Source: Pectobacterium sp. A5351
GTDB lineage: Bacteria > Pseudomonadota > Gammaproteobacteria > Enterobacterales > Enterobacteriaceae
Direction of reading: 5' to 3'
Assembly: GCF_028335745.1 (NCBI RefSeq)
Contig: NZ_CP116477.1
Span: forward strand, 2,480,001 to 2,544,000
DNA: 64,000 nt
Made by a program: the position numbers and the translations under genes. The notes beneath the pieces were generated by a model. The model was not told where the DNA came from and did no database searches. It saw only the letters and a list, made by a program, of their open reading frames with translations. Shown one piece after another: positions 1 through 4,774 of this stretch. Numbering within the stretch: position 1 is the stretch's first letter; each line of letters starts with the position of its first letter.

Positions 1-404
1 TTTTTTGTCTCAGCTTTATCCTGTGGTGCTGGTGCTGGTGCTGGTGCTGGTGCTGGTGCTGGTGCTGGTGCTGGTGCTGGTGCTGGTGCTGGTGCTGGTG
101 CTGGTGTCCTTTTATTTTCACAGTTCCATTCTGAAGAACCATCAGCTTTGTATGTTTCAAGGCATCCGTCATGTGGTTTTTGCGTGTTTTTGATCTCAGC
201 AGATACATCTTGCACCGGCGCTTCTTTTTCTGGTGTTGGAACAAACGCTAGAAGAAAAGCTAAAGCAGCAACAGCACCAACACAAACACCGCTGAATTTA
301 CTTAACCACGGTTTATTACCTTTCTTAATGAAAGTACGCGAAAGGTATTTAGCGACTAAGATCCAAATGACAATAGAACCAGCAATAATCAAAAATTCCT
401 TCAT
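1..404 (-). CDS. Prophage membrane protein with Pro-Ala repeat linker (partial)
   Basis: This reading frame has no stop before the window edge, so its C terminus is missing. The ATG at 404 follows an AAGGAT ribosome site. Residues about 3-22 and 38-55 are strongly hydrophobic and look like two membrane segments. A polar stretch with two cysteines (about residues 81 and 95) follows, then from about residue 101 an uninterrupted Pro-Ala array of about 27 residues, then QDKAETK. The layout (membrane anchor plus rigid Pro-Ala spacer) resembles periplasm-spanning TonB or TolA-type linkers, but no family is recognised. It is the third gene downstream of the prophage repressor in the same direction, so it is probably expressed in the lysogen. 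An immunity or superinfection-exclusion role is only a guess. Confidence 0.7.
   Translation of the reverse strand, partial: MKEFLIIAGSIVIWILVAKYLSRTFIKKGNKPWLSKFSGVCVGAVAALAFLLAFVPTPEKEAPVQDVSAEIKNTQKPHDGCLETYKADGSSEWNCENKRTPAPAPAPAPAPAPAPAPAPAPAPAPAPQDKAETK
25..106. repeat. Hexanucleotide microsatellite, 13 copies of GGTGCT
   Basis: Thirteen perfect GGTGCT units (25-102) are followed by a partial GGTG. On the minus strand they encode the Pro-Ala linker of the prophage membrane protein. Because the unit is six bases, slippage would change linker length without shifting the frame. Confidence 0.97.
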
Positions 405-413
405 GTAATATCC

Positions 414-998
414 TTATCTAAATAAAAAAGATGTAAAAAATCCTAAAAAGAAAACACCGACAAATACTTTAGGGTGAGTTTTTATGAGTTCTTGCCAATC
501 CACTGCTTTAGGCTGTATGGGGTTTGGCTGGTGTTGCCGCAATTCATCTCGATCAAAATGGTCAAACGCTACTTGAAGTTGTTCACGGGATAAATCGTTG
601 AGCGTTTTCGTACCAAATTTTTTCAAACAAAATCTATCGCGTTCTGTTGCGGTATCCACGGTTAATCGCAATATTTCGCTGACTAATCGGCGGCACTCTT
701 TTGCCAGCTTAGCCTCTGCCAGTCTATGTCGCAGATACGTCTCAGCTTTATGATATTTCTTGGTTGTAATGCCATTGATACTGTGAACATCAATATGGGC
801 ATGAACGGCTCGCCACAGATCTTTCTTAGGCTCGCCGCTGGCAGTAACAAGGTCATCTAGCAATTGGTGCAGGCGATGACGCTGAGCTGGAAGTAGCGAC
901 TCATCATCTGTCGGGTTTTCACCTGAAGGGGGATGTATATTGATAATGTCTCTGGATGAGAACTGTCCCTGTGCAGTTCCATTAAATTCCTGCCGCAT
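414..998 (-). CDS. Prophage protein with C-terminal membrane anchor
   Basis: 194 aa, with an ATG preceded by AAAGGAGA. The N terminus carries NGTAQGQFSSRDI, related to the tail of the neighbouring repressor (NGDISGQFAGNQI). Two short similar segments follow, about residues 61-92 (LWRAVHAHIDVHSINGITTK region) and 121-151 (FCLKKFGTKTLNDLSREQL region). Each is a basic helix, a short loop, then a helix with a conserved Ala and hydrophobics, as in the ORF6C/antirepressor type of phage module. That resemblance is weak and from memory. The last 16 residues (about 177-192) are hydrophobic and end in FLFR, suggesting a tail-anchored inner-membrane protein. It lies 32 bases after the repressor on the same strand, so it is likely co-transcribed in the lysogen. 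Function unknown. Confidence 0.75.
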   Translation of the reverse strand: MRQEFNGTAQGQFSSRDIINIHPPSGENPTDDESLLPAQRHRLHQLLDDLVTASGEPKKDLWRAVHAHIDVHSINGITTKKYHKAETYLRHRLAEAKLAKECRRLVSEILRLTVDTATERDRFCLKKFGTKTLNDLSREQLQVAFDHFDRDELRQHQPNPIQPKAVDWQELIKTHPKVFVGVFFLGFFTSFLFR

Positions 999-1030
999 CC
1001 TATCTCCTTTATTACTGTGTGTTACTCGTT

Positions 1031-1444
1031 CTATTTATTTTTTTTATTACTGACCGCGCCATTATTAACAATCTGATTACCGGCAAATTGACCACTAATA
1101 TCGCCATTGAATATCTGAGGAGCAGCACCTTGCGGAACAGAACCAACTGTTAAAGCTGCGAGTACAGCAGACTTGACCGCTAATGGTGCAGATCGATAGT
1201 GATTAATCAATTCCAGTTCATCATTGGGTAAAGCCGCACTTGCTCTTACCCCTGTGACAACATACTGAACATCTAAGCCAAATTTTGCTAGCGCAGCCAA
1301 ATAAGAAGCATCAGGAAAACGCTCACCTTTTTCATAGTTTAGCTGGGTAAGTTTTTTCACTCCGCCGATCTCTCCCATAGCGGGCTGGCTCAATCCTAAC
1401 CGTTCACGTTCTTCTCTTAGGCGCTCGCCGATATAATTTTGCAT
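1031..1444 (-). CDS. Prophage XRE-family repressor
   Basis: 137 aa from the ATG at 1444, which has an AGAGATTAG ribosome site. A longer frame begins at 1537 but would run through the divergent promoter and operator. Residues 5-60 form a typical Cro/CI helix-turn-helix (GERLREERERLGLSQPAM, then EKGERFPDASYL). Residues 80-105 (ELINHYRSAPLAVKSAVL) are a helix pair common in short XRE repressors. There is no RecA-cleavable peptidase domain, so simple SOS cleavage is not expected. The C terminus has an unusual NGDISGQFAGNQIVNNG tail. It lies next to a perfect palindrome overlapping the rightward early promoter, its probable operator. This fits the Mu c-repressor position. Confidence 0.85.
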   Translation of the reverse strand: MQNYIGERLREERERLGLSQPAMGEIGGVKKLTQLNYEKGERFPDASYLAALAKFGLDVQYVVTGVRASAALPNDELELINHYRSAPLAVKSAVLAALTVGSVPQGAAPQIFNGDISGQFAGNQIVNNGAVSNKKNK

Positions 1445-1455
1445 ACTAATCTCTA

Positions 1456-1484
1456 TTGACTGGTATAAATTTTTATACCATAAT
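1456..1484 (+). promoter_or_regulatory. Early rightward phage promoter
   Basis: The -35 box is TTGACT (1456-1461), the spacer is 17 bp and the -10 box is CATAAT (1479-1484). It sits between the divergent repressor and gp16-type genes, in the right place to drive the transposition operon. Confidence 0.75.
1461..1480. promoter_or_regulatory. Repressor operator palindrome
   Basis: TGGTATAAA (1461-1469) and TTTATACCA (1472-1480) are perfect 9-bp inverted arms with a 2-bp centre. The palindrome fills the spacer of the early promoter, so a protein bound here would block polymerase. The likely ligand is the adjacent XRE repressor or the gp16-family protein. Confidence 0.7.
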
Positions 1485-1530: not shown

Positions 1531-1719
1531 ATGACACCCGAACAAGTTAAAAACCGCTTGCAGCAACGCGGTATCACCATCACCCAATGGGCACGAGAGA
1601 ATGGCTACTCTCGTGAAGCGGTCTATCGCGTACTGAGCGGCATAACAAAAGCCAAGTACGGCCAGGCACATGAAATCGCCGTCAAACTCGGCCTTAAAAC
1701 CACGGCCCGTGCCGCCTGA
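1531..1719 (+). CDS. BcepMu gp16-family phage regulatory protein
   Basis: 62 aa. The ATG at 1531 has a GGAGG site at 1519-1523. An upstream in-frame ATG at 1456 lies inside the promoter and is not used here. The sequence TPEQVKNRLQQRGITITQWA, then ENGYSREAVYRVLSG and HEIAVKLGLK, is characteristic of the BcepMu gp16 family, small helix-turn-helix proteins at the start of the early operon of BcepMu-like transposable phages. By position it replaces the Ner protein of phage Mu, which dampens early transcription. That role is inferred from position. Confidence 0.85.
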   Translation: MTPEQVKNRLQQRGITITQWARENGYSREAVYRVLSGITKAKYGQAHEIAVKLGLKTTARAA

Positions 1720-3004: not shown

Positions 3005-4774
3005 ATGAGTGCCGCCCTGACAGAACGATTAGTAGCTATCGCGCGTGTCGCACGGCAGGCCGGGCATGGCGAACGCGGTGCCATCTATGACGCCGCCTGT
3101 ATTGAGCTGGGGCTATCTCGCGCCACGTTGCTACGCAAGTTAAAGGAGGTTGCCGTGACTGACAAACGCAAAAAGCGTGCCGATGCTGGACAAAGCGCCT
3201 TGACGCGGGATGAAGCTGCCATGATTTCCGCCACATTGATGGAAGCAACCCGTAAAAACGGCAAACGCTTGTACTCCATCGCTGACGCCGTAGAGACCTT
3301 GCGGGCAAACGACATGATCGCTGCTGGGCGCATTGATGAAGCCACGGGCGAGTTTTATGCCCTGTCAGAGACCGCTATCAGCCGCGCTCTGCGCAATTAC
3401 GGCCTGCATCCCGATCAGTTAAGCCAGCCTGCGCCCGTGACCGAGCTGGCCAGTCTGCACCCTAACCATGTATGGGAAATCGACGCCTCACTTTGCACCC
3501 TCTATTACCTGAGCAACGGACATAAGGGCTTGCAGGTGATGGACAGCGCGAGGTTCTACAAGAATAAACCAGCAAATGTGGCACGTATCGCCAGTGACCG
3601 CGTCTGGAGCTATGAAATCACTGACCACACCAGCGGCTGGATCTACGTCGAGTATGTGATGGGCGCTGAATCTGGCGAAAACCTGTGCTCTGTGCTCATC
3701 AACGCCTTGCAAGAGCGCGGCGGCGCGGATGTGCTGCACGGCGTGCCTAAGCTGCTGTATCTCGACCCCGGTTCTGCCAACACCGCAAGCATGACAAAAA
3801 ACCTGTGTCGTGCATTGGGTATCGATTTGAAGGCGCATAAAGCCCATGCGGCGCGTTCAACAGGCAGCGTTGAGAAGGCCCGCGACATCATCGAACGCAA
3901 ACTGGAGCCGGGCCTGAAGTTTCAACCGGTTCATAGTCTGGAAGAGCTGAATGCGCTGGCTGTGAAATGGCGTTCTCACTTCAATGCTACCGCTGTTCAT
4001 AGCCGCCACGGACAGACTCGCACCGATATCTGGCTGAAAATCAACGCTGAACAGTTGGTGAAAGCGCCGTCTATTGAGGTTTGCCGCGAACTGGCCGTCG
4101 CAACACCAGAAGAGCGCAAGGTCAAGCCGAAGCTGCGCGTGTCGTTCCGTGGCATTGAATACGATGTGTCTACCGTACCCGATGTGAGGGTCGGCGAGAA
4201 GTTGCTGATCACCCGCAATCCGTGGCGCACCGATGCCGCGCAAGTGGTACTGACAGGTGAAGATGGCCACGACACTTTCTTCCTGATCGATGAAGTCACC
4301 AAAAATGAATTTGGCTTTGCCGACTCTGCCGCAGTGATCGGCGAAAACTACAAATCGCACGCAGATACGCCAGCTCAAACTGCTGCCAAAGAAATTGAAC
4401 AACTGGTGACGGGAACGGATAACGCGACGGATGCGGCGGCGGCACGTAAAGCGAAGGCGCTGCCGTTCGGCGGCAAACTTGACCCATACAAACACATTGA
4501 CGACACCACGTTACCTGCATTTATGCCGCGTCGTGGTACGGAATCTGATGTACGCAGCCCGCGTATCGAACAGCGGCCCCTTACGCATGTTGAAGCGGCT
4601 AAGGCGCTGCGTGAGCGGTTTGCAGCCCGTAACCAGACATGGACAGCCGGACACTTTCGCCAACTGGTTGAACTTTATCCCGCTGGCGTGCCGGAAGAAC
4701 AACTTGATGACGCTGTCGATGCGCTGCTAACACCGGTTTCCGGCAATGTCATCAACATCGTCAACGGGAATTAA
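3005..4774 (+). CDS. DDE transposase of Mu/BcepMu type
   Basis: 589 aa. It catalyses DNA strand transfer for integration and replicative transposition of the phage. Residues 1-50 form an N-terminal helix-turn-helix. Residues about 150-340 are an integrase-core (rve) catalytic domain with a candidate triad D160 (VWEIDAS), D254 (LYLDPGSAN) and E290 (GSVEKARD). The C-terminal part (about 370-440) looks like the Mu transposase beta-barrel. The start has AAGGGGA upstream. A second strong ribosome site (AAAGGAGG, 3142-3149) lies just before an in-frame GTG at 3155 and could give a 539-residue form without the N-terminal HTH. The ATPase partner starts 9 bases downstream. Confidence 0.9.
   Translation: MSAALTERLVAIARVARQAGHGERGAIYDAACIELGLSRATLLRKLKEVAVTDKRKKRADAGQSALTRDEAAMISATLMEATRKNGKRLYSIADAVETLRANDMIAAGRIDEATGEFYALSETAISRALRNYGLHPDQLSQPAPVTELASLHPNHVWEIDASLCTLYYLSNGHKGLQVMDSARFYKNKPANVARIASDRVWSYEITDHTSGWIYVEYVMGAESGENLCSVLINALQERGGADVLHGVPKLLYLDPGSANTASMTKNLCRALGIDLKAHKAHAARSTGSVEKARDIIERKLEPGLKFQPVHSLEELNALAVKWRSHFNATAVHSRHGQTRTDIWLKINAEQLVKAPSIEVCRELAVATPEERKVKPKLRVSFRGIEYDVSTVPDVRVGEKLLITRNPWRTDAAQVVLTGEDGHDTFFLIDEVTKNEFGFADSAAVIGENYKSHADTPAQTAAKEIEQLVTGTDNATDAAAARKAKALPFGGKLDPYKHIDDTTLPAFMPRRGTESDVRSPRIEQRPLTHVEAAKALRERFAARNQTWTAGHFRQLVELYPAGVPEEQLDDAVDALLTPVSGNVINIVNGN
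3142..3157 (+). promoter_or_regulatory. Internal ribosome site and GTG start in the transposase
   Basis: AAAGGAGG (3142-3149), a 5-base spacer, then GTG (3155-3157) in frame with the transposase. Initiation here would remove the first 50 residues, which are the N-terminal HTH. This Shine-Dalgarno is as strong as any in the operon. Confidence 0.55.

Follow-up and report, generated by a model that had tools for sequence, protein, structure and literature searches.

Matched tags on prophage repressors and the neighbouring membrane proteins suggest a lysogeny switch wired to the membrane

In many dormant phages, the lysogeny repressor carries a short tag that matches a tag on the membrane protein encoded by the next gene, and comparison of these proteins suggests that the lysogeny switch is wired to the membrane. 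Alignment of the loci shows tags that correspond within each locus, vary from one locus to the next, and are attached to partner bodies that BLASTP does not link to one another. The explanation that we regard as the best overall, and to which we give an even chance, is a two-gene lysogeny unit in which the C-terminal tail of the repressor and the N-terminal head of a usually membrane-anchored partner carry matched tags. The evidence, which is drawn from sequences, agrees better with a physical connection of the repressor to the membrane protein than with two unconnected accessory genes.

The unit was studied in the window, i.e., the whole analysed stretch of 64,000 nucleotides (C2:2480001-2544000 of the 4.41-Mb genome of Pectobacterium sp. 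A5351); positions given alone refer to it. A preliminary description had proposed a prophage lysogeny module in which a repressor, a 194-residue protein and a third gene are read leftward from a palindrome and could form a new defence arrangement. All three genes are present in the sequence, and the neighbouring genes identify the region as the lysogeny side of a BcepMu/B3-like transposable prophage. To the right (position 1531 onward) are found a divergent HTH gene (1531..1719, plus strand; phrog_925, 3e-29), which is ner-like by position and the first gene of the lytic side, an IclR-type regulator, and transposases A and B. Lysis and terminase genes lie to the left (L003). In the interval from the lysis genes to the lysogeny unit, the plus strand encodes a Dam-family adenine methylase (L003:13168-14109; TIGR00571, 109.5 bits, just under the cut-off of 114.85) and a small protein of 92 aa (L003:14204-14482) whose N-terminus is hydrophobic as judged by eye. 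Three points are new relative to the preliminary description: the third gene is cut, its slot is variable, and the repressor tail and partner head share a motif.

The repressor (1031..1444, minus strand; 137 aa from its ATG) is of the XRE type, as had been proposed: it matches HTH_31 with 27.3 bits against a cut-off of 27, its best PHROG match is phrog_8 (transcriptional regulator, 3e-15), and its best PDB sequence match is the P22 c2 repressor (2e-4). SOS-cleavable CI repressors contain an S24 peptidase domain, whereas a Pfam search at E values up to 1 detected no LexA/S24 peptidase domain in the 137-aa protein. The palindromic operator candidate TGGTATAAAttTTTATACCA (1461..1480) spans 20 bp with 9-bp arms; when its intergenic stretch was shuffled by mononucleotides 2000 times, 8 of the shuffles contained perfect arms of at least 9 bp. 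Of 23 other loci inspected, 12 have a GGTAT...ATACC palindrome upstream of the repressor (L004, L007, L063, L064, L067, L070, L071, L103, L106, L112, L143, and L152, of which L007 and L063 are one contig). Among the near relatives, the exact palindrome with at most four central bases is present in L004 and L007 and absent from L005, L006, and L008.

The second gene (414..998, minus strand) encodes the 194-aa, Flk-like partner. It had been described as belonging to no recognised family, which can be updated: it matches phrog_5825 at 3.6e-51 (residues 14-193, profile positions 26-207 of 208), a family labelled "unknown function", and it resembles host Flk (NF007987, 9e-14), with a score of 51.5 bits that lies far under the family cut-off of 353. 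The helical body (residues 37-156; 531..890, minus strand) consists of two halves, each resembling the Red-beta C-terminal domain. The partner shares with host Flk (RflH) a similar helical body domain and a C-terminal hydrophobic end; it has one body domain (residues 37-156) instead of the two of Flk, whereas several host Flk frames give two body matches per frame, and the host Flk of this genome carries no tag by eye. The C-terminal membrane anchor proposed earlier corresponds to a helix predicted at residues 176-193 (420..473, minus strand) by the AlphaFold2 model and hydropathy. The protein is thus predicted to be tail-anchored, with a disordered head: residues 1-30 have a mean pLDDT of 46-49 per ten-residue block. 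Fifteen of its first 21 residues are invariant in 10 aligned sequences, and few parts of the partner are as well conserved as the tag.

The third gene extends leftward from position 404 to beyond position 1 (1..404, minus strand); the full gene (L003:14547-15404) encodes 285 aa. The description of its product as a membrane protein with an Ala-Pro linker was confirmed, while the truncation by the window edge had been missed. Helices are predicted at residues 2-27 and 32-54, followed by the linker and a C-terminal alpha/beta domain (model mean pLDDT 66). The Ala-Pro run is encoded by a (GGTGCT)n hexamer array (25..105, ends approximate, minus strand), and its length varies between homologues, being much shorter in P0010. 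The near relatives L004-L008 were fetched with the 194-aa protein as query, so that the presence of this protein in them proves nothing; the repressor is directly upstream of it in each. In the third slot, L008 holds the same gene (97% identity) and L004 a diverged homologue (67%, best segment), L005 and L007 hold a 132-aa lipoprotein-like gene, and L006 a 320-aa gene. Searches with the third protein itself returned L253 and L254, which are contigs of L008 and L004, and L255 and L256, in which a homologue lies behind other repressor/partner pairs. In L255 a two-helix partner with an internal tag-like stretch (L255:2471-3430) follows a repressor without a tail tag. Since the slot varies across relatives, the third gene cannot be counted as a conserved part of the module as first described, and the three-gene module is reduced to a two-gene core plus cargo. 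This variable cargo is presumably on the same transcript as the core.

The tag of the repressor C-tail, QIFNGDISGQFAGNQIVN (residues 110-127; 1064..1117, minus strand), aligns with a score of 49 to residues 3-20 in the disordered N-terminus of the partner, QEFNGTAQGQFSSRDIIN (939..992, minus strand). The second prophage of the same genome, which is P2-like (G000:C2:1625281; L040:5846-6884), has a repressor tail SINVTGSGQRVAGRDYHE and a partner head TVEAQGDNNRVAGRDYYE; this pair is of class R and the window pair of class F, so that one genome holds two tag classes. Its third gene (L040:6932-8125) encodes a 397-aa protein that matches the DNA-ligase family (phrog_2561) and, weakly, PDC-S48 of PADLOC (1.6e-5). 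Matched tags are also present in named phages, namely B3 ORF18/ORF20, Ps59 gp17/gp18, KS5 gp11/gp12, AP3 gp39/gp38, and KS10 gp13/gp12, and they occur on unrelated membrane proteins such as B3 ORF20. The repressor homologues of Dobby, PfPro, Mana, H72, and JBD25 have no tail tag, and the next genes inspected in these phages have none either. In PfPro (L057) and L177, the next gene shares a helical stretch with the C-terminal part of the repressor, which is another kind of pairing. In one operon with one repressor, three different proteins with hydrophobic stretches bear the same N-terminal tag (L134:3409-5512). In three other genomes of the order (L045, L046, and L047), an XRE domain, a Gly/Asn-rich stretch that looks tag-like by eye and a C-terminal domain, which matches ORF6C in L045, are joined in a single polypeptide, and no membrane anchor was seen in these by eye. 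In phage 520873 (NC_049344.1, L039), gp04 is followed, after position 3768, by a frameshifted partner gene that lacks annotation. Several partners (L108, L172, L175, KS5 gp12, and AP3 gp38) have, by eye, a Cys-containing Y.G..YS.G-like stretch past the membrane segment, which is possibly periplasmic.

Loci were collected by two scans with a profile of 11 repressors, and the best 80 of each scan gave 160 partly redundant loci. The 11 repressors were picked for carrying tags, and the sampling was by DNA-binding domain from tagged seeds. Six of the 160 loci lacked a following ORF; the remaining 154 and 12 own or named pairs made up 166 pairs, or 96 after removal of near-duplicates. The summed tail/head score of the 96 cognate pairs was 3239, compared with 2143 for shuffled pairs (sd 76, maximum 2462; 0 of 20,000). 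The 72 pairs with Gly-rich tails scored 2677 vs. 1721 for shuffled pairs (0 of 20,000); 39 of these tails exceeded the 99th percentile of shuffled heads, and the 33 below it include L066, L070, and L111, which match by eye. For the 24 pairs without a Gly-rich tail, 219 of 20,000 shuffles reached the cognate sum, and four pairs stand out: the tagged L120 and L144, and PfPro and L177 through their helical stretch.

Profile HMMs of the two classes were used to score the tags. Among 84 non-redundant repressor-selected loci, which derive from the best 80 per scan, both tags were detected in 31, the tail tag only in 15, the head tag only in 1 (L070), and neither in 37 (Fisher p 1e-10). The co-occurrence of the partner with related repressors, on which the preliminary description depended, is thereby borne out for the tagged partner in these 31 of 84 loci, and in partner-selected loci an adjacent matching repressor was found in 7 of 9. 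The classes agree in all 31 two-sided loci (R-R 16, F-F 15, crossed 0), a table that is partly circular because the HMMs were trained on 34 of the same pairs. Of the 15 tail-only loci among 46 with a tail tag, L108 and L200 match by alignment after all, and the other 13 include seven from Janthinobacterium, Acidovorax, Undibacterium, and Andreprevotia. A clear tail tag, with no tagged gene detected directly behind it, was observed in L159, L169, L182, and L186 (Janthinobacterium) and in the viral loci L132, L138, and L141; L182 has no following ORF within the limits.

In 5406 six-frame ORFs of the 160 loci, which include many near-identical prophages, the R-class head HMM gave 49 domain matches in repressor C-termini, 50 in next genes and 0 in other places, and the R-class tail HMM gave 50 in repressor C-termini, 47 in next genes and 0 in other places. 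The F-class head HMM gave 41 matches in next genes, 13 in repressor C-termini, 3 at repressor N-termini, and 3 in other ORFs, and the F-class tail HMM gave 45 in repressor C-termini, 15 in next genes, 5 elsewhere in repressors, and 3 in other ORFs; all F-class matches to other ORFs lie downstream of the pair in L129 and L134. Within class F, cognate pairs again scored higher than shuffled ones (0 of 20,000), and within class R they did not (1585 of 20,000). L199 and L201 have tags of their own type, and there each side is the best match of the other among the 96 pairs.

The likeness resides in the proteins. At shared residues with degenerate codons in the 39 matched pairs, the same codon was used in 158 of 387 cases, and 161.6 +- 9.2 were expected from codon usage. 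Codon identity is thus not raised, as it would be if the DNA had recently been duplicated or converted between the two genes; this comparison shows that the tags are kept at the protein level while synonymous codons are randomised. BLASTP comparison (E 1e-3) of the 39 matched partner bodies places 30 in a single linked group and the others in eight separate groups (B3/Ps59, L064, L065, L127, L137, L199, L200, and L201). Domain exchange separates the DNA-binding half of the repressor from its tail: L004 and L005 share 29% identity in the DNA-binding half, 97% in the tail, and 99% in the partner, and L042 and L043, which are from the same genus, share 36, 97, and 97%, respectively. The opposite is seen between the window and L064, in which the DNA-binding halves are 99% identical and the palindromes similar, whereas the tails share 23% and the partners 25%; the L064 partner, a small membrane protein, carries a matching tag and has no BLASTP link to the Flk-like group. 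A partial Mantel test of tail against head, given the DNA-binding half and the body, yielded 0.64 (0 of 2000, n = 45). Because the tail is encoded next to the partner, linkage could by itself account for their being inherited together, but not for the likeness of tail and head. By hydropathy, a membrane segment is predicted in 36 of the 39 matched partners vs. 34 of 57 other next genes. KS10 gp12 and, as a borderline case, L199 look soluble by hydropathy, and L163 and L034 do so by eye, so the membrane is not universal in tagged pairs.

From these comparisons we infer that repressor and partner very probably associate through their tags. A lock-and-key contact needs no likeness between its two sides, whereas tail and head are similar and vary in parallel; the simplest reading is therefore a contact of like with like. 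That the contact is beta stacking in the style of amyloid signalling or RHIM motifs is a proposal for which and against which we see equal weight. Through the tags, the partner would hold or capture the repressor at the inner membrane, this capture would tune the amount of free repressor that guards the operators, and a repressor without a recognised RecA-cleavable domain would gain an envelope-responsive route to induction. This sequence of events is put forward tentatively, at a little less than an even chance, and the direction of signalling is a guess. Control of free repressor by the membrane is nevertheless favoured over a Rex-like exclusion device, in which the repressor would sense a superinfecting phage and template the membrane partner via the tag, leading to membrane damage or closure, as RexA stimulates RexB. 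Such exclusion or abortive infection, which we consider rather unlikely, would account for the frequency of membrane segments among matched partners and for partner bodies in BLASTP-unlinked groups, as is often the case for effectors, and a RexA-type protein of P. putida is described as binding DNA, with a membrane partner that damages the membrane (PMC12894663). Against it stand the soluble-looking partners and the presumed co-expression of repressor and partner throughout lysogeny, owing to which activation would need an additional brake. A PADLOC scan of 10 proteins also speaks against it, with only weak matches at best 1.6e-5 (the cargo gene of the other prophage) and 1e-4 (the repressor HTH) and no defence family beyond these.

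The remaining explanations are less probable still. Terminal tags are typical of protease or adaptor signals, and the C-tail of the Mu repressor governs its degradation, so the two tags could each be recognised by the same third protein, such as a host protease (ClpXP or Lon) or a chaperone, without touching each other. We consider this improbable, since a single conserved receptor of the host is hard to reconcile with matched tags specific to a locus, such as GSGSVQVGHVEG with GSGNVQAGHVNG in L199 and likewise those of L201, or with the two separate classes of one genome (window and L040). Somewhat more improbable is that the tags are relics with no joint function, left when a fused ancestor like L045 was split or tail-coding DNA was duplicated. 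The fused proteins of L045-L047 and the adjacent encoding of the two tags agree with such an origin, but codon identity no higher than codon usage predicts, the tag on BLASTP-unlinked bodies, the three tagged proteins of the L134 operon and the strong conservation of the tag within the partner all argue against it. The Flk-like body raises the further idea that the partner mimics host Flk, which restrains flagellar late secretion in Salmonella according to PMC13344023, and so delays the flagellar secretion switch and alters motility or receptor display. The score far under the Flk cut-off, the single body domain as opposed to two matches in host frames and the untagged Flk of this host make this the least probable of all, and as partners outside the Flk-like group keep the tag, flagellar control is unlikely as a general role.

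The closest known short-motif systems to the pairing proposed here, a repressor linked by matched tags to its partner, are the bacterial amyloid signalling motifs (BASS) and the RHIM/PP motifs. BASS motifs, 21-40 aa in length (PMC12261475), were recognised on the basis of a motif common to the products of adjacent NLR and BELL genes, one of which has a membrane helix (PMC7889193). In the phage pairs, too, neighbouring genes encode proteins with a short motif in common at their termini, one of them with a membrane helix, but no NLR is involved: the tag sits on a phage-borne, DNA-binding XRE repressor of 137 aa, and the phage tags occupy opposite ends (C-terminus of the first gene product, N-terminus of the second). 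When amyloid-forming peptides were compared with 45 matched repressor tails, AEB69175_5_29 reached a best score of 41 (0 of 100 shuffled) and AAS80314_349_385 one of 47 (2 of 100), and neither the third verified peptide, ORT49035 (18 of 100), nor the non-aggregating RDW70414 (53 of 100) stood out. Repressor tails that lack a matched partner reach almost the same scores, and partner heads do not stand out against AEB69175 (best 29, control N-ends up to 33), so this likeness is weak evidence for amyloid.

Prophage-encoded pairs of a DNA-binding and a membrane protein are known from lambda CI-RexA-RexB (PMC11077077) and P. putida RexAB (PMC12894663), from which the present pairs differ in that the repressor itself carries the link; scans with Pfam, PHROGs, and PADLOC gave, at the limits applied, no match with the name RexA or RexB. 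Hex of phage 434 is made together with the repressor and influences the stability of the lysogen; it blocks RecA-driven cleavage (PMC3564112), whereas Pfam detected no cleavable domain in the window repressor. Weak matches to antirepressor profiles of the ORF6C/Ant type were obtained for the window partner (1.5e-3 and 4.2e-3) and its relatives (down to 4e-7). ORF6C (PF10552) itself gave no Pfam match in the window protein at E up to 1, and among 10 proteins scanned it exceeded the Pfam cut-off only in the fused L045 (25.7 vs. 22). Over approximately 60 residues, the partner fold resembles one chain of the repressor-containing SaPI2 Stl-Sak complex (8qe9). Unlike these antirepressors, the partner is membrane-anchored and has no match to the antirepressor N-terminal domain.

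RNA-Seq of Fc02 is reported to show that the gene downstream of a B3-like repressor is transcribed with the repressor in the lysogen (PMC9936078). One version of the tagged pair is common in E. coli: when DNA of prophage contig L077, from the 3' part of the repressor through the partner, was compared with 5426 complete E. coli genomes, 515 had a match, which in 511 covered at least 80% of the query, and the 12 matches listed of the 515 are annotated as an HTH protein or transcriptional regulator with a hypothetical or membrane protein. Escherichia phage 520873 has a tag and partner similar to those of L077. From the tags it can be predicted which repressor and which protein form a pair. More speculatively, and at clearly less than an even chance, they may be homotypic tags of the amyloid type outside the NLR world, in which the repressor would act as receptor, one to three co-encoded membrane proteins as executors, and the classes as insulated addresses limiting cross-talk between co-resident prophages. 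If this is true, phage immunity would be wired to the membrane.
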